Assembly: GCA_004295055.1 (NCBI GenBank)
Contig: SHNJ01000035.1
Coordinates: forward strand, 1 to 46,013
DNA: 46,013 nucleotides
Reading direction: 5' to 3'
Origin: Alphaproteobacteria bacterium
Lineage (GTDB): Bacteria > Pseudomonadota > Alphaproteobacteria > SHNJ01
Below are positions 6,135 to 46,013 of this stretch, piece by piece. Numbering within the stretch: the first letter of the stretch is position 1; every line of letters begins with the position of its first letter. Position numbers and translations under genes: made by a program. The notes under the pieces are model-generated. The model searched no databases and was not told the DNA's origin. It saw nothing but the letters and a program-made list of their open reading frames with translations.

Positions 6135-8414
6135 TCAGGCTGCCTGAATTATCTTTTCCAAGTCCCCAGCGGACAGCTTGGATTTTGAAGAAGGCCGAAT
6201 TCGGGCTGGAGATTTTGCCCCAAGATCGATCACGACATCGCATAAATATCGGCACTGATGCCACAGATGTGGCGGCAATGTATCATCTTTAGATCGGATC
6301 AATATAGTCCATGCGGAAGCATCTTCCTGTAAAATAGCTTCAAGTTCTTGATAAGTCTCTAATTCTGCGACTTCATATCCCATCGATTCAAATTTCTCGA
6401 CCAAATATTGCCTGGTACTGTTTTGTGGCAATAATAACAATATACCTTCGGCAGGTAGAGTTTCGTTATCGTTTAAAGCTTCGCTCCATGGTTCGCCGTC
6501 CACTTGTTGCAATAAGGGCAACCAGATTTTTGCGGTGGTTCCGTGGCCTGGCTTTGAAATCAAACTTAATTTTCCGCCATGCGCTTCGGTGATCAAATAG
6601 CTGATAGCAAGACCAAGACCGCCCTGCCCTTGCCCTTTGGTTGAAAAACCAGGATCGAAGGCTTTTTGCAACTGCTCTTCATTCATGCCCACGCCGCTAT
6701 CGTGGAATGAGACTAAAACGCCCTGTTGTTCTAAGTTGCTTTGAATGGATATGTTCCCGCCTTTTGGCATGGCTCGAATGGAATTTGACAGCAGGTTGAT
6801 AAACACCCGCAAGATCTGGGTAGCATCGACCTCAACACGAATATCCTTGCCAATCGCCGATGCAATCGCGATTTGTTGCGATCGCGCTTGAGGACCAATG
6901 ATCTTGGTTGCCTCTTCGATCAAATCGAATAATAAAACCGGCTTTAATGTAGGTTTATGAAAAACCTGCCCCGCCCCCAACTGGCCCAGCATTTCCTTGC
7001 CGCGTTGCGAAGCCTGATAAACCGCATCGATCGCTTGATTGGCTTCAATATCCTTTGCGCCGGAAAGTTTTTGCCGGATCACATTCAAGTGACTTTGAAT
7101 TGCCAGCATGAGATTGGAAAAATCGTGATGAATAACTTGGCTGGTTTTGTGAATGCCATGCACGCGTTCGGATAAAATCTTGCGGCGTTCTTCTTGTTCC
7201 CGCGCGCTGACATCTTCCGCCTGCAAACTGTAACCGTAAACAACCTTATCAACCATCAACGGCAAAATGGTCAGTTCGATTATTTTTTCCTGTTGCTGAT
7301 CCTTTATATTAAGCTGGTGTTTCAAGTATCTATTTTGAATCAATGCCGGATCCTGCAAAATGGTTTTTAATTCCGGCAAATAATCCGTAATAGGGCAACC
7401 TTCGGCCAAAAATTGGCCGGTGGCGTGATCGATCAACAATTCCTGCGCCGCGGGATTGAATTGTCTTAACCTCCAACCCTTGTCCAATTCCACCAAAGCG
7501 ATCGGGCTGCGTTGCATTTGATGATGGCGCAAATATTCTTCTTGGCGCAAGGCCTGATTCAGTTGGCGCAATTCCGCGATTTGTTCGCGCGCGCCGGTAA
7601 TCGATTCGGATTGTTGACCGGATTCGGCGCGGAAATTTAAGACCCCCCAAATAGACCGTTTGGGCATCAACGCATTTTGCATATACGCCATCACATCATA
7701 CGCCAGCAAAGTGACAAAGGCGGGAGCGGCCAACAAACAAAATTCTGGCCATTCCAAGCCTATGTTGATCAGGCCTTGATCATATCCATAGGTTAGAAAG
7801 GAGAATAACGGCAGAAACACCGTAATACCGGCGGCAAATCCAAATGGCAAAGTCAGCAACCGGCTGACGCGCCGCGCCAACTCGGCGCCGATGGTGCATA
7901 CAACGCCAGAAATAATCAAGCTTCCGGCCAGAGCGATCTGGGTATTGATCGGGGTAAAAAATAAACTTGGCGTTGGCGTAACATGGCCCAATGTTTCAAG
8001 AAAAAACGAATAGCCCATGCCAAAAACGGCGCCGCACACCATCACGCCCAAAAACGCGCGGGCCATGCGCACGCCATCCATCGCGTAAGTTAACGTGGCG
8101 CCAGCCAACAATGCCGGAATAATGCCCAGCAAAGCGGCGTTGATTTTATAATCTTGCCAATCCACCCACCAGCCGATTTGCACCAATTGCCAAACGAGGA
8201 AAGTCAACAAACCTCCCAATGCCAGCATCGGCGCCATGGTTATTTGGCCGCGCAATTGATGCAAGGCCATGATTAATCCGGTGGCGATAAAATAAACGCC
8301 GACAAAATATAACGGCGATGCGTATAACGCGTAATCGAATTGAGACCATACTGGCATTATGCCGGTTGCTGGCGTTATAAATTCTTCGACGTACCAGCCA
8401 ATGGAACTGTTCAT
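6135..8414 (-). CDS. Membrane PAS-domain histidine kinase with a degenerate C-terminal receiver
   Basis: This is a 759-residue sensor kinase. About seven transmembrane helices fill residues 30-248. A PAS-like domain follows (about 295-405), then the dimerisation H-box with VIHHDFSNLM (phospho-acceptor probably His430). The catalytic ATPase domain shows the N-box around Asn540-Asn544, DSGVGMN at 572 and GGLGLA at 598. The last 100 residues resemble a receiver fold but I see no acidic pocket or conserved phospho-Asp context, so it is probably a pseudo-receiver. The partner response regulator is encoded 17 nt upstream. The pair sits inside the type II secretion cluster between gspK and the gspM-like gene, which suggests it controls secretion; that is inference. 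Confidence 0.85.
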   Translation of the reverse strand: MNSSIGWYVEEFITPATGIMPVWSQFDYALYASPLYFVGVYFIATGLIMALHQLRGQITMAPMLALGGLLTFLVWQLVQIGWWVDWQDYKINAALLGIIPALLAGATLTYAMDGVRMARAFLGVMVCGAVFGMGYSFFLETLGHVTPTPSLFFTPINTQIALAGSLIISGVVCTIGAELARRVSRLLTLPFGFAAGITVFLPLFSFLTYGYDQGLINIGLEWPEFCLLAAPAFVTLLAYDVMAYMQNALMPKRSIWGVLNFRAESGQQSESITGAREQIAELRQLNQALRQEEYLRHHQMQRSPIALVELDKGWRLRQFNPAAQELLIDHATGQFLAEGCPITDYLPELKTILQDPALIQNRYLKHQLNIKDQQQEKIIELTILPLMVDKVVYGYSLQAEDVSAREQEERRKILSERVHGIHKTSQVIHHDFSNLMLAIQSHLNVIRQKLSGAKDIEANQAIDAVYQASQRGKEMLGQLGAGQVFHKPTLKPVLLFDLIEEATKIIGPQARSQQIAIASAIGKDIRVEVDATQILRVFINLLSNSIRAMPKGGNISIQSNLEQQGVLVSFHDSGVGMNEEQLQKAFDPGFSTKGQGQGGLGLAISYLITEAHGGKLSLISKPGHGTTAKIWLPLLQQVDGEPWSEALNDNETLPAEGILLLLPQNSTRQYLVEKFESMGYEVAELETYQELEAILQEDASAWTILIRSKDDTLPPHLWHQCRYLCDVVIDLGAKSPARIRPSSKSKLSAGDLEKIIQAA

Positions 8415-39714: not shown

Positions 39715-40641
39715 TTATAGTGCCCGTCCGCGCCGAACATATTCTGCCACTATTTTTCGTCCAGCACTATTGGCCGATATTTTTCTTAACGCTTTCTGTG
39801 CCACACCAGAAACAGCGTCGGCCCATCCTTCATACATCAATCCCGAATAATGAATGCCGTCTTTGGCAAATAAATTTGGATCTGGCGCACCATTCACTGT
39901 CGCTTCTTGCCGCGTCATTTTAGTAAGATCGACATACTGAACACCCTCGCGATTTCTTTTCGATGGTTCTTTATTTATTTCCCGTATCACACCCCTGGCA
40001 GCGCGGTTGAATGAATCAATCCCAGCGGCGATACCGGTCTGACGGTTATAGGCCCTGGCCGCTTTAATTTGACGCTGTACAGTGTGCGCATTTTTTGAAA
40101 CAGTGACTGTCCGACTAGAAATCCGCAGATTACGGATAGCAACGCCAATCGATCTCATGCGTTGCCGGACGAGAGCATATTTACCCTGGCGGAATTTTAA
40201 TCCGCCTTTGCCATGCACGGACGGCGACGCATCCCACGCCGGAATAGACAGCACCACAACCCGCGAACGGTCATCCTTGGCAAAACGGATCGCGCGGCGC
40301 AATAATTCGCGGAAATGATGTTTATAATGTTCCACCGACATGCCGCGAAAAAAATCATTAACACCAATCGATAGCACCACCAAATCATAATCGCCCTTGC
40401 GATGATTCGGGTCTTCCGGATTGGATTGTGGTTCCGCCGTATCCAGCGCCCCAAGCAAATGAGTCGTCGTATGTCCATCCACCGCATATAATTTTGGTTT
40501 GCGCAAACGCAATTCGACTTCCCTTAATCTTTCCATCAATTGAAATGGAAATGCCTGACGTTCCAATCCCTTACCAAGACCGGTGCCGACGGTAAAAGAA
40601 TCGCCCAAAAATAACGATTTAAGTGGCCTGCGTTTTGCCAT
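39715..40641 (-). CDS. SGNH/GDSL-type hydrolase
   Basis: This 308-residue hydrolase of the SGNH fold has block I SLFLGDSFTVGTG (nucleophile Ser), block III VLSIGVNDFFRG (Gly, Asn) and block V DGIHYSGLMYEGWADAV (catalytic Asp and His). The SGNH set is complete. No signal peptide is seen, so it is probably cytoplasmic. It is rich in Arg. Esterase or lipase activity on acyl or acetyl groups is the family expectation; the substrate is unknown. It lies after the rpsA terminator and its own stop abuts the GNAT stop. Confidence 0.85.
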   Translation of the reverse strand: MAKRRPLKSLFLGDSFTVGTGLGKGLERQAFPFQLMERLREVELRLRKPKLYAVDGHTTTHLLGALDTAEPQSNPEDPNHRKGDYDLVVLSIGVNDFFRGMSVEHYKHHFRELLRRAIRFAKDDRSRVVVLSIPAWDASPSVHGKGGLKFRQGKYALVRQRMRSIGVAIRNLRISSRTVTVSKNAHTVQRQIKAARAYNRQTGIAAGIDSFNRAARGVIREINKEPSKRNREGVQYVDLTKMTRQEATVNGAPDPNLFAKDGIHYSGLMYEGWADAVSGVAQKALRKISANSAGRKIVAEYVRRGRAL

Positions 40642-40660
40642 GCTTATACCCCCTTATAAA

Positions 40661-40698
40661 AAAAGCGGTGAATCAGTTTGAACCAATTCACCGCTTTT
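40661..40698 (-). terminator. Rho-independent terminator of rpsA
   Basis: The 13-bp arms AAAAGCGGTGAAT (40661-40673) and ATTCACCGCTTTT (40686-40698) have a 12-nt loop and are followed on the minus strand by T residues. It sits 18 nt past the rpsA stop codon. Confidence 0.85.
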
Positions 40699-40716
40699 AT
40701 ATTTTACATCAAAAAA

Positions 40717-42516
40717 TTACTCGGCTGTATCCGAAGATTCAGCTTTTTCTTTTTTCTTCTTTGCGGCTTTCGGTTTTTCTTCCGAGGCGGCTTCGGATTT
40801 GCGTCCTAAAGCTGCGCCCAAGATGTCGCCCAAACGCGCGCCGGAATCGGTCGAACCATATTCTTCCATCGCTTGTTTTTCCTCGTCAATTTCACGGGCT
40901 TTGACCGACAGAGTGACTTTGCGGGTCGCTTTGTCCATGCCCGTGATTTTGGCGTCGATTTTTTCGCCAACCGCAAAACGGTCGCTGCGTTGTTCGCTGC
41001 GGTCGCGGGATAAATCGCCCTTGCGGATGAAACCGGTAACGCCTTCGACGACGGTGACTTCAAGACCGGCATCAACCACCGAAGTGATGGTGCAGGTAAC
41101 GACATCGCCTTTCTTGATTTTCGACAAAGCGCCTTCGAACGGATCGCCGGTCAATTGCTTGATACCAAGCGCTACACGTTCTTTTTCCGGATCGATATCT
41201 AGAACTTTTACTTTGACTTTGTCGCCCTTTTTGTAATTTTTCAGGGCTTCTTCGCCAGAAGCGTTCCAATCGATATCGTTGGCGTGCACCAAACCGTCAA
41301 CATCGCCGATGAGGCCAATGAACAAACCGAAATCGGCGACGTTTTTAATTTCGCCTTCGAATTCGGCGCCGGATGGGAATTGTTCTTTAATTTGATCCCA
41401 TGGATTCGCCATGCATTGTTTCAAGCCGAGCGAAATGCGGCGTTTGGCCAAATCCATATCCAAAACCATGACTTCGACTTCTTGGCTGGTCGATAGGATT
41501 TTGCTTGGGTGAACGTTTTTCTTGGTCCAGCTCATTTCGGACACGTGCACCAAACCTTCGACGCCCGGTTCGATTTCAACAAACGCGCCATAATCGGCGA
41601 TGTTGGTCACGCGGCCTTTCAATCTGGTTTGCGGCGGATATTTCGCCTGAACCGCTGCCCATGGATCTTGTTCCAATTGTTTCATGCCCAAGGAAATGCG
41701 GCCATTTTCCTGGTTGAAGCGGATGACCTGCACTTTAACTTGCTGGCCGACCGATAAAACTTCGGATGGATGGTTGACGCGTTTCCAGGAAATGTCGGTG
41801 ACGTGCAACAAACCGTCGATGCCGCCCAAATCGATGAACGCACCGTAATCGGTGATGTTTTTCACGGTGCCGGTCAAAATCTGGCCTTCGGAAATATTGC
41901 TGACGAGTTCGTTGCGCGCTTCCGCTCTCGATTCTTCTAAAATCGCGCGGCGGGAAACAACGATGTTGCCGCGCTTGCGGTCCATTTTCAAAATCTGGAA
42001 CGGTTGCGGGGTGTTCATCAACGGGCCAACATCGCGCACTGGGCGGATGTCAACTTGCGAAGCCGGCAAGAAAGCAACGGCGCCGTTCAAATCGACGGTG
42101 AAACCGCCTTTGACTTTGCCGAAAATAACGCCGGTAACGCGTTCCTGGCTTTGGTGAGATTTTTCCAAAACTGTCCAGGATTCCTCGCGTTTCGCGCGTT
42201 CGCGCGATAACACGGCCATGCCGTCGCGGTCTTCATAACGTTCGATGTACACATCGATCGAATCGCCCGCTTTGATTTCCGGCGCCTGGCCGGACAAAGC
42301 GAATTCGCGAAGCGGGATGCGGCCTTCGGATTTCAATCCGACGTCCACGGTGGCGTAATCGCCATCGATGGAAACGATCAGGCCTTTTACGACCTTACCT
42401 TCGCTTGCAACGCGGGTATCATAAAAATCTTTTAACAGAGAGGCGAAATCTTCGCCGCCGGTAGTAGATGTAGATGGTGTGGTTTCTTTTTTTGCCACTG
42501 CACTAGTCCTTGCCAT
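40717..42516 (-). CDS. rpsA: 30S ribosomal protein S1
   Basis: This 599-residue protein carries six S1 RNA-binding repeats, e.g. GTVKNITDYGAFIDLGGIDG, GRVTNIADYGAFVEIEPGVE and GEIKNVADFGLFIGLIGDVD. It binds mRNA leaders at the ribosome. The start at ATG 42516 (MARTSAVAKK) has GAGGA 8 nt before it; the in-frame TTG at 42531 overlaps this Shine-Dalgarno and is unlikely. The C-terminal 35 residues are Lys/Glu/Ala-rich and disordered. It follows cmk by 127 nt, the conserved cmk-rpsA order. Confidence 0.96.
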   Translation of the reverse strand: MARTSAVAKKETTPSTSTTGGEDFASLLKDFYDTRVASEGKVVKGLIVSIDGDYATVDVGLKSEGRIPLREFALSGQAPEIKAGDSIDVYIERYEDRDGMAVLSRERAKREESWTVLEKSHQSQERVTGVIFGKVKGGFTVDLNGAVAFLPASQVDIRPVRDVGPLMNTPQPFQILKMDRKRGNIVVSRRAILEESRAEARNELVSNISEGQILTGTVKNITDYGAFIDLGGIDGLLHVTDISWKRVNHPSEVLSVGQQVKVQVIRFNQENGRISLGMKQLEQDPWAAVQAKYPPQTRLKGRVTNIADYGAFVEIEPGVEGLVHVSEMSWTKKNVHPSKILSTSQEVEVMVLDMDLAKRRISLGLKQCMANPWDQIKEQFPSGAEFEGEIKNVADFGLFIGLIGDVDGLVHANDIDWNASGEEALKNYKKGDKVKVKVLDIDPEKERVALGIKQLTGDPFEGALSKIKKGDVVTCTITSVVDAGLEVTVVEGVTGFIRKGDLSRDRSEQRSDRFAVGEKIDAKITGMDKATRKVTLSVKAREIDEEKQAMEEYGSTDSGARLGDILGAALGRKSEAASEEKPKAAKKKKEKAESSDTAE

Positions 42517-42643
42517 TATATTAGTCCTCAACTTTCAACAAAATAGCGGAGGCATGGCAAACTCTCCCGGCAAAAGGAGATGCTTTGTCCTGCCCCTACT
42601 TTTTGGATTGCCTGATTTCGGTCATACCGGAATAAATCGACGG

Positions 42644-43300
42644 TTAACTTACTGGCAATCCTTGGGTTTTTTGTTTGATATAATCCAACGCCTTGATCAA
42701 AACATCATCGGCGGTAAGACTGGTAGTATCCAGGTGATACGCATCCGGTGCCATTTTCAACGGAGCCGTTTTGCGGCTGCTGTCGCGGTCATCGCGTTGT
42801 TTTAAATCATCAAAAACCTGGGTCTGTATAGCCTCTATCCCTTGATTTTGCAACTCTTTTAGCCTTCGTTCGGCGCGCACGGCCGGATCGGCTGTGACAT
42901 AAAGTTTTACCTGGGCTTTGGGGCACACTACTGTGCCAATATCGCGGCCATCCAGTACTACCCCGGCCTGGCCAGCAGACGGGTTTTGCGCAAAATCCCT
43001 TTGTAAAGGCAGAAGAATTTGGCGAACGGACGGGTAAATCGCAACCTTGGACGCAGCTTGGGAGACTTCTTCGTTGCGTAACAATTCGGCTTGCAAATCT
43101 TCGATACGCACCTGGCGCGCCGCCCAGGCACAATCGTCCTCGACTGCAATATTTTTATTATTTTTCAATGTGATATAAGCTGTTTGGCGATATAACAGCC
43201 CCGTATCGAGATACGCAAAGCCCAGTTTTTCCGCCAATTTACGGGCCAAAGTGCCCTTGCCGGATGCGCTGTCGCCGTCGCTTGCAATAATAATGGTCAT
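42644..43300 (-). CDS. cmk: Cytidylate kinase
   Basis: This 218-residue (d)CMP kinase has the P-loop SDGDSASGKGTLARKLAEKL, then FAYLDTGLLYRQTAY, the CMP-binding VVLDGRDIGTVVCPKAQVKL, and RDDRDSSRKTAPLKMAPDA. The start at ATG 43300 (MTIIIASDG) follows the family, but CAACCTCC precedes it and no Shine-Dalgarno is seen; an in-frame ATG at 43327 is an alternative. It is upstream of rpsA and divergent from the FYDLN-domain gene; aroA, its common neighbour, is absent here. Confidence 0.93.
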   Translation of the reverse strand: MTIIIASDGDSASGKGTLARKLAEKLGFAYLDTGLLYRQTAYITLKNNKNIAVEDDCAWAARQVRIEDLQAELLRNEEVSQAASKVAIYPSVRQILLPLQRDFAQNPSAGQAGVVLDGRDIGTVVCPKAQVKLYVTADPAVRAERRLKELQNQGIEAIQTQVFDDLKQRDDRDSSRKTAPLKMAPDAYHLDTTSLTADDVLIKALDYIKQKTQGLPVS

Positions 43301-43443
43301 GGAGGTTGTTGTTATTGACCGCGCCATTAAATGTCAAGGCTTCGGGATAAATATAGTCTGCTTGACTTTCTATCCCAAATTTGGCAAATGGCGCGCATTC
43401 CTGAATTGGGGTCTTCATCCCTATTACACCATCAAAGGCACCT

Positions 43444-44052
43444 ATGGCGAAAAGCAAATCCAAAACAAAATCGACCAGTAAAAAAACCGATAAACCAGCC
43501 AAAGCGGTAAAAAAACCGGTAAAGCCAGCCGCAAAGCCGGCAAAAGCCGCGCCGGCGAAACCGGCCAAAGCGGTAAAAGAAGTGGCCAAGGCGCCAGTTG
43601 GAAAATTGCCCCAAAAAACGCTGGGCGGCAAAGCGCCGGCGCCGATCAAAAAACCGGCCAGCAGCATTTTAAGCCTGGCGGCGGGAAGCAAGCCGGAATG
43701 GGGCGTAAAGCGCATTTGCCCGTCCTGTTCGGCGCGTTTTTACGATATGAAAAAAGATCCGATCATTTGCCCGAAATGTGAAACCGAAATCGATCCGGAA
43801 GCCATTACCAAAAGCCGCCGGGGACGCGGTGCCGCCGCCGCAGAGGCAGCAGCGGCCGAAGCTGAAAAACTGAAAAAGAAAAAACTGGCCGCCGCCAGCG
43901 ACGATGACGAAGATATTGAAATAGACGATTTGCCGGATATCGAGGATGCCGAAGACGACATCGATGAGGAAGCCAGCGATGAAGTCATCGAAGACACCGA
44001 CGATTTGGGCGAAGAAGAAGCCGAAATCAGCGCGGTGATCGAGGAAGATTAA
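43444..44052 (+). CDS. TIGR02300-type FYDLN acid-domain protein
   Basis: This 202-residue protein has three parts: a Lys/Ala/Pro-rich basic repeat region (1-75), a zinc-ribbon-like centre (about 95-125) with KRICPSCSARFYDMKKDP and ICPKCETEIDP, and an Asp/Glu-rich acidic tail (about 155-202). The centre plus acid tail match the family known as FYDLN acid domain, common in alphaproteobacteria and of unknown function. The motif here is FYDMKK, a variant. The N-terminal Lys/Ala/Pro repeat is longer than usual. It is followed by tRNA-Ala, as in related genomes. Confidence 0.88.
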   Translation: MAKSKSKTKSTSKKTDKPAKAVKKPVKPAAKPAKAAPAKPAKAVKEVAKAPVGKLPQKTLGGKAPAPIKKPASSILSLAAGSKPEWGVKRICPSCSARFYDMKKDPIICPKCETEIDPEAITKSRRGRGAAAAEAAAAEAEKLKKKKLAAASDDDEDIEIDDLPDIEDAEDDIDEEASDEVIEDTDDLGEEEAEISAVIEED

Positions 44053-44160
44053 GCGGTGGACGGTGGACAGGGAACGATGGACGGTTAATCCGTAATATTG
44101 TTCATTTAATCCGTCATTTCAAAGGTTTCCGACAACAGCGCGGCGTCATAAAAACATATA

Positions 44161-44189
44161 TTGTGTTTTGCATGGGGAGTTTGTATAAA
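44161..44189 (+). promoter_or_regulatory. Promoter of tRNA-Ala
   Basis: TTGTGT (44161-44166) and TATAAA (44184-44189) are 17 nt apart; the tRNA begins 25 nt later. An 11-nt palindrome GTCCATTGGAC lies at 44201-44211 between them. Confidence 0.55.
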
Positions 44190-44214
44190 TCCCACTCTCT
44201 GTCCATTGGACAAG

Positions 44215-44281
<67 letters not shown>

Positions 44282-44290
<9 letters not shown>

Positions 44291-44330
44291 GCCTTCGCCG
44301 TAAAAAATAAACATAAGTGAAGGCTGCCAC
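44282..44330 (+). repeat. Palindromic repeat, copy 1, starting in the tRNA-Ala 3' end
   Basis: Copy 1 starts with GGTCCACCA, the tRNA 3' end, and runs into an imperfect palindrome with 10-nt arms (CAGCCTTCGC at 44289-44298 and GTGAAGGCTG at 44317-44326) and an 18-nt loop. The first 25 nt are identical to copy 2 at 45959, and the similarity continues through the right arm with a few changes. Confidence 0.85.
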
Positions 44331-44388
44331 GTCGTAGCCGCAGGCGAAGACGGGCTGTTGCGGTTAAAAGCTTCGGCTCGGCAAGCCA

Positions 44389-44988
44389 TTAGGTTTTATA
44401 GCCGTCATAAAAAGAATTTATAACGAATATTTCCCCTATTTTTTTATCTTTATTCAAAATCACCCAAGATATTTTATAGTATTGATGATCTCTCACACGA
44501 TCACCTAACTGGACTTTTACCGTTACCTTCTGAATACCCGCATTAGTATTACTAGCTTGCATCTCTAACGGGCAATCTTCAATTATATGTGCGTATAATT
44601 TAAGAAACCTAGTCCAATCATCCAAAGATTCATTAATTCCAGGCAATCCATTTTGTTCCAAAAAACTACTTAACTCTTCTTTAAGAAGATTCATACTAGA
44701 TATTTTTTCAATCTGATTTCTTAGATCTGTAGGCAATGAGCCTATTTCTATATGGTTTTTTAAAATCACATTAGCCTCATCAAATTGCTTAAGAATTTTC
44801 TGAGCAATTGAGTTCGTAAGCCTTGAGTGTAAGGCCCAATCGCAATAAAATTTTAAATGCTTATATTTATCGCTATCATCGATTTCTAAGATTTTTCTGA
44901 CCTGTGCCATCAAATAAACGACTTGGATCTCACTTATGATCCCTTTTTTAATCTCAACGTCTAATTTCTCAATAATACTTGGTCTCAT
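44389..44988 (-). CDS. Hypothetical protein of an AT-rich two-gene module, 199 residues
   Basis: No function is recognised. The ATG at 44988 is preferred; an in-frame TTG precedes it. The protein is mostly helical in the first 150 residues. A stretch YKHLKFYCDWALHSRLT (about 42-58) looks like the conserved core of a helical family that I cannot name. A C-terminal beta segment (VTVKVQLGDRVRDHQYYKIS) follows. Base use differs from the neighbours: AT-rich, with many AGA and ATA codons, which suggests transfer. The 51-residue gene lies just upstream (16 nt), so the two are probably co-transcribed. Confidence 0.75.
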   Translation of the reverse strand: MRPSIIEKLDVEIKKGIISEIQVVYLMAQVRKILEIDDSDKYKHLKFYCDWALHSRLTNSIAQKILKQFDEANVILKNHIEIGSLPTDLRNQIEKISSMNLLKEELSSFLEQNGLPGINESLDDWTRFLKLYAHIIEDCPLEMQASNTNAGIQKVTVKVQLGDRVRDHQYYKISWVILNKDKKIGEIFVINSFYDGYKT

Positions 44989-45004
44989 CAATCACCCAAT
45001 AAAT

Positions 45005-45160
45005 TTACAAACTGTTTAAAATATTTAGCAATTTGCCAGCCCTTTTTGAATCCTGCACCGTATCACCCGGCAATTCAAGAAATACCCGGCCTTTGCCGTC
45101 GGTAATTAGGATAATAATTCTTTCGCTGTAAAAATATTTCTGCTTCTTTTTGTGACTCAT
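45005..45160 (-). CDS. Hypothetical small protein, 51 residues, partner of the 199-residue protein
   Basis: This short reading frame starts MSHKKKQKYFYSERIIILIT and ends KLLNILNSL. A charged Lys-rich start is followed by a beta-like IIILITDGKGRVFLELPG segment. No family is recognised and no signal peptide or membrane helix is seen. It is in tandem with the 199-residue gene, with 16 nt between them, in the AT-rich segment downstream of tRNA-Ala. A small protein plus larger protein pair is a layout shared with toxin-antitoxin or defence modules, but nothing in the sequence proves this. Confidence 0.6.
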   Translation of the reverse strand: MSHKKKQKYFYSERIIILITDGKGRVFLELPGDTVQDSKRAGKLLNILNSL

Positions 45161-45273
45161 GGTTGCCGCCTTTGTTGCCGAACATATTGTAACGGAATCC
45201 GGCTAGGTTGCAGTTCACTATATAGGACAAAAAATAGGCGTCCACGAACCCACAGTACGAGTTTTGCCAAATA

Positions 45274-45297
45274 AAAATCCCCCTTTCGGGGGATTTT
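45274..45297. terminator. Bidirectional rho-independent terminator
   Basis: AAAATCCCCC and GGGGGATTTT form a 10-bp stem with a TTTC loop. It lies 51 nt past the DUF305 gene stop (minus strand) and upstream of the two-gene module, so it insulates the module from the DUF305 transcript. Confidence 0.8.
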
Positions 45298-45308
45298 CAT
45301 TTCTAAAC

Positions 45309-45340
45309 TGTCATCCCGAACCTTTGGGTGAGGGATGACA
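45309..45340. repeat. REP-like palindrome between the terminator and the DUF305 gene
   Basis: The 9-bp arms TGTCATCCC (45309-45317) and GGGATGACA (45332-45340) have a 14-nt loop. Elements beginning TGTCATCCC are common dispersed intergenic palindromes in proteobacteria. Only one copy is seen in this window, so repetition in the genome is inferred. Confidence 0.5.
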
Positions 45341-45348
45341 AGACCGAA

Positions 45349-45798
45349 TTAATTCGCCTTCGACGGATTCTTATCGTGCGATTTCAGCCAAGCTTTCATT
45401 TGCGCGATTTCTGTTTCCTGGGCTGCGATAATACCTTGCGCCAGTTTTTTGATCTCGGCGTCTTTGCCATATTGCAAAACCACTTTGGCCATATCGATCG
45501 CGCCTTGGTGATGCGGGATCATGCCGCGCACAAAATCGACGTCGGCGTCGCCGGTGTATGCAATCATCATTTCGGAATGCATTTCAGCGGCGGCTTTTTC
45601 AAATGCCTGGGTCGATGCGGATTGGGATGCTGAGTTTACAGCGTGGCCGGAATGAGAATCGCCGGTTTTCTGCATTTTCTCCGCCGGGGCCGTTGGCAAC
45701 GGAGCTTTTTCCGCTTTTGCGGCAACTTCGGCGGCCATAACGGGCGCGGATAAAAATGCCGCAACAGCCAATATCAGAATCGTATATTTTGTTTTCAT
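45349..45798 (-). CDS. Exported DUF305-family protein
   Basis: This 149-residue protein has a signal peptide (MKTKYTILILAVAAFLSAPV, then MAAE), a Lys/Ala/Pro-rich linker, and the DUF305 helical domain: FVRGMIPHHQGAIDMAKVVL (His-His-Gln core), KKLAQGIIAAQETEIAQMKA. The family is helical, and members have been tied to metal handling, copper among others; I do not claim a substrate here. The start at ATG 45798 has a GGAGAG Shine-Dalgarno; the frame is open to 45861 but the longer form lacks support. A promoter-like pair lies at 45846-45874. Confidence 0.9.
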   Translation of the reverse strand: MKTKYTILILAVAAFLSAPVMAAEVAAKAEKAPLPTAPAEKMQKTGDSHSGHAVNSASQSASTQAFEKAAAEMHSEMMIAYTGDADVDFVRGMIPHHQGAIDMAKVVLQYGKDAEIKKLAQGIIAAQETEIAQMKAWLKSHDKNPSKAN

Positions 45799-45845
45799 GA
45801 AAATCTCTCCGGTTAAATGTGGTGGCAACATCAATAGGCGCAATA

Positions 45846-45874
45846 ACCATATAAAAACCAAGCTTAAAAAGCAA
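45846..45874 (-). promoter_or_regulatory. Possible promoter of the DUF305 gene
   Basis: On the minus strand, TTGCTT (45874-45869) and TATGGT (45851-45846) are separated by 17 nt, about 48 nt before the ATG at 45798. The -10 is a partial match. Confidence 0.4.
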
Positions 45875-45958
45875 TATTGCCTTTTACATATAATCCTTTA
45901 AATTCAGCACATTCTAAACATAAAGGTTAACAATCGTGCTTAAAAATATTATCTGTCC

Positions 45959-46013
45959 GGTCCACCAGCCTTCGCCGTAAAAATCCAACATAAGCGAAGG
46001 CTGCCGCGCCGAA
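45959..46013 (+). repeat. Palindromic repeat, copy 2, with a tRNA 3'-end sequence but no tRNA
   Basis: Copy 2 starts GGTCCACCA without a tRNA body before it. The palindrome arms CAGCCTTCGC (45966-45975) and GCGAAGGCTG (45994-46003) are a perfect 10-nt match. The first 25 nt equal copy 1 and the element runs off the window end, so its right limit is unknown. Confidence 0.85.

Follow-up and report, generated by a model that had tools for sequence, protein, structure and literature searches.

An unnamed, scattered bacterial protein family with a conserved helical core, found beside a tRNA-Ala gene and behind individual restriction operons

A rare family in distant bacteria

The 199-residue protein encoded at positions 44389-44988 on the minus strand of the window (the whole 46,013-nucleotide stretch of the alphaproteobacterial contig SHNJ01000035.1 analyzed here) belongs to an unnamed family that is rare and widely scattered in bacteria, and the link of this family to restriction-modification (R-M) genes is real in single operons and modest as an enrichment. 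The gene begins with an ATG at 44988 and ends with a stop codon at 44389-44391. Homologues span several phyla at strong E-values, which places the frame beyond chance, and both this frame and the adjacent frame for a 51-residue protein are probably real genes. The 199-residue protein has no convincing match in Pfam, NCBIfam or PHROGs and no significant match in PADLOC, and a named-family match is absent for the 21-23 members tested, which supports the view of an earlier note on this DNA that the protein is undescribed. Additionally, no paper describing the family is among those listed by literature searches on HEPN proteins with R-M systems or in Patescibacteria. The PADLOC matches to PDC-M02B (0.0016) and AbiEi (0.012) were dropped as weak and as present in only one of 21 members, the 199-residue protein of the window.

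Members were collected by scanning genome_contigs (84,980 species) with the back-translated core motif, which returned 37 stretches; 20 were kept as family, and the other 17 were set aside because their translations read as short frames with no relation to it or as a different protein. The resulting 31-row alignment consists of the window protein, these 20 members and 10 members found by profile. It includes L097, a weak second match in genome G830 that is outside the neighborhood set described below, and leaves out L002, the truncated relative from genome G001 that lacks the motif region. Two partial matches, L087 and L088 (E 7.2e-5 and 2.5e-4), were rejected as response-regulator-like proteins.

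Most of the aligned members come from Patescibacteria, Acidobacteria and Bdellovibrionota; these phylum labels are those of the centre loci. Profile searches reveal the family in all 19 genomes that supplied the pattern loci, with one copy each, which is also the usual number for the family. In the samples of whole phyla, a member is present in 10 of 286 Patescibacteria genomes (two already known), in one of 247 Acidobacteriota genomes (the query's own) and in one of 398 Pseudomonadota genomes, namely that of the window; four of 191 Bdellovibrionota genomes have a match (two strong, one being the query's own genome). Among 190 relatives, one other genome carries the family, which is from the same taxonomic family as the window and has its copy truncated at a contig end. 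This patchy spread is a pattern typical of a mobile accessory gene. Searches with tblastn using the 199-residue protein gave no match in plasmids or phages, nor did the plasmid searches with L095 and L043, and profile and single-protein scans of viral contigs yielded no confirmed relative. A pattern scan of the viral contigs returned 18 stretches, all of which were judged to be unrelated frames.

Conserved core and predicted structure

The 199-residue protein consists of a helical domain, which contains the sequence FYC-D-WALH (residues 47-54) and the pair R31-K32, and a C-terminal beta module (residues 154-194). The most conserved stretch of the family in the alignment is the core YKHLKFYCDWALHSRLT, the same segment that had been called conserved-looking from the single sequence. 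R31 and K32 are each present in 30 of the 31 rows, and the acidic residues of helix 2 are E or D at position 35 in 29 rows and E20 in 26 rows, neither of which lies in an Ex3[KR] pattern. At the positions that the DNA pattern itself required (Y48, C49, N/D/H50, W51 and H54), where only the 11 rows outside the 20 pattern-selected ones count because those 20 were chosen by a fixed motif, H54 is invariant (31/31), W51 is found in 30/31, residue 50 is limited to N, D or H (14, 12 and 5 rows) and position 49 is Cys in 27/31, with G, S and L once each and R once. Within the 11 rows, which are the window protein and the 10 profile matches, H54 is present in all, residue 50 is D or N in all, and C49 is present in seven, the remainder having G, S, R or L. 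The single arginine at position 49 belongs to the profile-found member L095, which reads RDWACH at the motif and carries G in place of R31; this one sequence shows an apparent relocation of an arginine between helix 3 and helix 2.

The AlphaFold2 model, computed with 19 alignment rows (pLDDT 86, pTM 0.82), contains helices at residues 2-14, 20-37, 40-53, 60-78, 87-97, 100-112 and 122-137, followed by three strands. In the model, the C-[NDH]-W-x-x-H motif closes helix 3 (40-53), H54 opens the loop to helix 4 (60-78), and both R31 and E35 lie within helix 2 (20-37). In the HEPN survey by Anantharaman et al. (2013; PMC3710099), the Rx4-6H motif of the RNases is placed where helix 3 gives way to the loop before helix 4, its R is mostly followed by N, D or H, and helix 2 contributes an acidic residue; the survey also describes clades that keep the His without the Arg and links at least 16 HEPN clades to R-M systems. 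In HEPN proteins, this acidic residue is typically part of Ex3[KR]. H54 matches the place described for the catalytic His, and the polar N/D/H after the Arg position is present in all rows, whereas an Arg five positions before the His is absent in 30 of 31 rows.

The family appears to resemble R-M-linked HEPN RNases such as PrrC, AbiF/AbiD, AbiU2 and MAE_28990 (PMC3710099) in its predicted helical core, in a catalytic-type His that closes helix 3 and is preceded by N/D/H, in a conserved acidic residue of helix 2 (E/D35, outside an Ex3[KR] pattern) and, for some members, in being encoded singly within or next to R-M operons. It differs from them in that neither the sequence nor the fold gives a significant match, in the replacement of the Rx4-6H arginine, with an arginine in helix 2 instead, and in an unrelated C-terminal beta module. 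The clades Parep1/8 and c2405, as far as they are described there, likewise have a conserved His without the motif Arg, and for Parep1/8 other conserved basic residues have been proposed to take over from the Arg; Parep1/8 is archaeal and c2405 is fused to AbiTii, unlike the present family (PMC3710099).

The comparison with known profiles and folds gave no decisive match. Among 23 members searched with an E cutoff as loose as 10, none matches a HEPN family of Pfam, and Foldseek finds no PDB match below E 0.001 with either the whole model or its helical part. The best VIA Z scores, 3.6 for the whole model and 3.2 for the helical part, are not significant. With the helical part, the best 50 Foldseek rows include HEPN toxin chains, but at E values of 2.8-4, and the HEPN chain 8yuf_A (VIA Z 2.5 over 75 residues, rmsd 3.7) is tied with 14-3-3 and other unrelated bundles; with the whole model, no HEPN chain is among the Foldseek and VIA matches listed. 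MenT3/TglT (Z 2.3-2.9) and CinA/CinB (Z 3.6) were rejected as chance-level matches of the whole-model comparison. The HEPN fold is a four-helix core built from two helical hairpins; since the fold comparison speaks neither for nor against it, the domain is termed HEPN-like here as a working name and not HEPN.

Restriction and STAND-type genes as neighbors

The neighborhoods of 28 other members were compared; the wider surroundings of L033 were left out, and L126, the truncated locus of G001, was excluded from the neighbor counts. In four of the 28, a restriction enzyme gene or a giant nSTAND-like gene on the same strand ends 5-12 nt ahead of the family gene, and the operon types differ. The family gene is last behind type III Mod-Res in L121 (gap 12 nt), behind a methyltransferase (MTase) and MvaI/BcnI in L124 (gap 5 nt) and behind an EcoRI-like MTase and GmrSD/HNH in L116 (gap 8 nt), and in L107 it follows a gene for a 1606-residue nSTAND-like protein (gap 8 nt) with an MTase nearby. 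Looser arrangements are an MTase 54 nt ahead in L106, an Mrr-like nuclease 104 nt ahead in L120 and a GmrSD gene three genes upstream in L105. A defence context, which the earlier note had raised as one option, is likely.

Forty stretches taken elsewhere from member-bearing genomes served as controls; by phmmer, methylase genes are found near 5/28 members and in 2/40 controls (Fisher p 0.12). A broader count gives 9/28 against 2/40 (p 0.005) and is circular, because the queries were taken from the members' own neighborhoods. In PADLOC, type II methylase models are matched in four of 108 neighbor frames among the matches listed, and no methylase is among the 25 families listed for 76 control frames; the latter represent 19 of the 20 first-round controls, as L143 yielded no control neighbors. 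With the queries used, about two thirds of the 28 neighborhoods contain no R-M or defence gene. The window copy has no R-M gene alongside among the frames listed for 40000-46013, and no family member stands behind the EcoRI-like MTase-GmrSD operon of L170.

Several neighbors are worth recording in their own right. The EcoRI-type methylase and GmrSD/HNH pairs of L116 (5846-7988) and L170 (9901-12001), from two Patescibacteria genomes, are closely related. The giant proteins at 6415-11235 of L107 (1606 residues) and 1521-5450 of L104 (1309 residues) adjoin family members, have weak nSTAND3 matches and are candidate STAND-type defence proteins. Additionally, small related proteins (phmmer E 7.6e-6) with a membrane-anchor-like N-terminus adjoin family members at 7308-7694 of L126 (G001) and 5204-5695 of L112 (genome G569), with an orientation to the family gene that differs between the two.

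The 51-residue protein and the question of pairing

The 51-residue frame occupies 45005-45160 on the minus strand (start 45160, stop 45005-45007) and is separated from the 199-residue gene, on the same strand, by 16 nt, so that the positions and spacing first read from the sequence are correct. Conservation at the protein level is evident from two paralogues in the same genome (E 2.6e-5 and 9.9e-4); no DNA-level match between the gene and these paralogues is found at E 1e-5, and similarity in protein but not in DNA points to a real coding sequence. The core of this lineage-specific family is [KR]-x-Y-x-[FY]-[DS]-E ... G-x-V-x-x-E-L, followed by a C-terminal tail. The two further intact copies in the window genome stand alone, with no homologue of the large gene alongside, and decayed fragments are also present. 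A 183-bp repeat, 97% identical between its copies at 6738-6920 and 8443-8624 of L127 (G000:C7, about 176.7 and 178.4 kb), holds the final codons of one paralogue.

The 51-residue gene is real, yet it is not a regular partner of the 199-residue gene. No member of its family is found in the other 189 relatives searched, and a scan of viral contigs gave no confirmed relative. A profile of the family run against six-frame translations of the 28 member neighborhoods gives no relative (best E 4.2), which is the observation named beforehand as one that would speak against the two-gene module proposed in the earlier note, and the module is not supported. The profile finds no relative in L126 of G001 either, with the reservation that this locus, the only one from the same taxonomic family as the window, breaks off at a contig end exactly at the expected place of the small gene. 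The arrangement in the window resembles toxin-antitoxin modules such as HEPN/MNT in that the gene for a larger putative effector is immediately preceded by a small one; unlike HEPN/MNT-type modules, the small gene has no match to known antitoxin families and is not a constant companion of the large gene.

Possible role of the family

We tentatively regard the 199-residue gene as a mobile, defence-type accessory gene for a HEPN-like effector, with the arginine moved to helix 2, that would form a second line behind nuclease systems. The N-terminal helical domain may work like the metal-independent ribonuclease domain of HEPN proteins, with a small residue (in most members Cys) at the position of the motif Arg and R31 of helix 2 acting in place of that Arg. 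Partner sensing or binding would fall to the variable C-terminal beta module. By analogy with PrrC and PrrI, the protein would remain inactive next to a restriction or STAND-type nuclease system until this first line fails, at which point it would attack RNA. In the window genome, the gene would sit by itself on a small cassette next to tRNA-Ala, with the 51-residue protein as a locally recruited, non-obligate neighbor and possibly a regulator. The family itself, its motif and distribution, the missing pairing in other genomes, the R-M operon links of several members and the tRNA site flanked by repeats are observed directly. RNase activity, HEPN homology, the back-up role and the function of the 51-residue protein are what we infer from these comparisons, and the caution expressed here reflects an arginine swap seen in one sequence and the lack of a decisive fold match.

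An explanation that appears less likely is that the protein has no catalytic activity and serves restriction and STAND-type nucleases as an adaptor or regulator, in which the conserved helical hairpin binds an element common to them (DNA, a nucleotide or a nuclease surface) and the likeness to HEPN is convergence in a helical bundle. In favor of this are the lack of a HEPN profile match and of a significant fold match, the Cys that 27 of 31 rows have at the position of the catalytic Arg, and the place of several members as last genes of R-M operons; an invariant His with N, D or H four residues earlier, at the very place used in HEPN, is hard to reconcile with a purely structural role. That the family has no defence role at all is improbable. 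The tRNA site and genomic islands would gather foreign genes, with the R-M genes as fellow travellers, and both the many neighborhoods without an R-M or defence gene and the non-significant methylase count agree with this; the four members placed 5-12 nt behind restriction or STAND-type genes, on the same strand and in different operon types, do not, nor does the deep conservation of the putative active site.

A true toxin-antitoxin pair, with the 199-residue protein as toxin, the 51-residue protein as a locally recruited antitoxin and partners swapped between lineages, also has a low probability. Besides the close, same-strand spacing in the window, unrelated small frames closely precede some members (HTH_17 in L103, 18 nt ahead; DUF4160 in L113 and a 61-residue frame in L125, both overlapping), and in L101 the family gene is closely followed by a gene for a Phd/YefM antitoxin. 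In most members, however, a small upstream gene of this kind is absent, and the 51-residue family is found near none of the 28 other members and by itself at two other sites of its genome.

The HEPN-like effector can be extended to a bolder and rather unlikely proposal: a cross-phylum clade of HEPN-type RNases, chiefly in Patescibacteria, in which the catalytic arginine has left helix 3, where the motif is C-[NDH]-W-x-x-H, for helix 2 (R31), and which act as portable back-up effectors docking onto type II, type III, GmrSD and nSTAND operons. If the HEPN-like reading is right, the family joins the abortive-infection repertoire of bacteria with reduced genomes, and the best-known HEPN catalytic motif can be rebuilt with an arginine from another helix, in which case motif-based searches would miss such families. 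If it is wrong, there is nonetheless a conserved family without a name, clearly invariant in its core, whose members annotation pipelines label as hypothetical.

The tRNA-Ala site

The GC content of the 199-residue gene is about 31-32% compared with about 50% in its surroundings, and a tRNA-Ala (GGC) gene at 44215-44290 on the plus strand is convergent with the gene pair, its 3' end pointing toward it; the AT-richness of both frames and the neighboring tRNA noted earlier are confirmed. On the other side, a bidirectional hairpin resembling an intrinsic terminator (45278-45293) lies between the 51-residue gene and a DUF305 protein gene (45349-45798, minus strand; the start is an internal ATG picked by eye). 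The strong terminator said to insulate the pair is thus present as a hairpin, but because it divides the pair from a gene on the same strand, it may simply be the terminator of the DUF305 gene. A weak promoter-like site at 45217-45244 (minus strand), 57 nt ahead of the 51-residue gene, is at chance level (5 found compared with 4.6 expected in shuffles).

Two copies of a 56-bp repeat, 88% identical, enclose the 199-residue, 51-residue and DUF305 genes. The left copy (44279-44334, plus strand) comprises the last 12 nt of tRNA-Ala and a palindromic tail; the right copy (45956-46011, plus strand) carries GGTCCACCA from the 3' end of the tRNA without a tRNA gene. The pair resembles the attL and attR sites of an insertion at tRNA-Ala, as judged from the repeats, and the 199-residue gene was probably acquired next to the tRNA. 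No integrase frame is seen between the two copies, the right one of which coincides with the end of the contig. The tail, similar to CCAGCCTTCGCC...GCGAAGGCTG, comes immediately after the CCA end at five tRNA genes of the window genome (Ala, Leu, Pro, Val and Pro, including those of L138-L141), and the copy at 45956-46011, with the last nine bases of tRNA-Ala, is the sixth.
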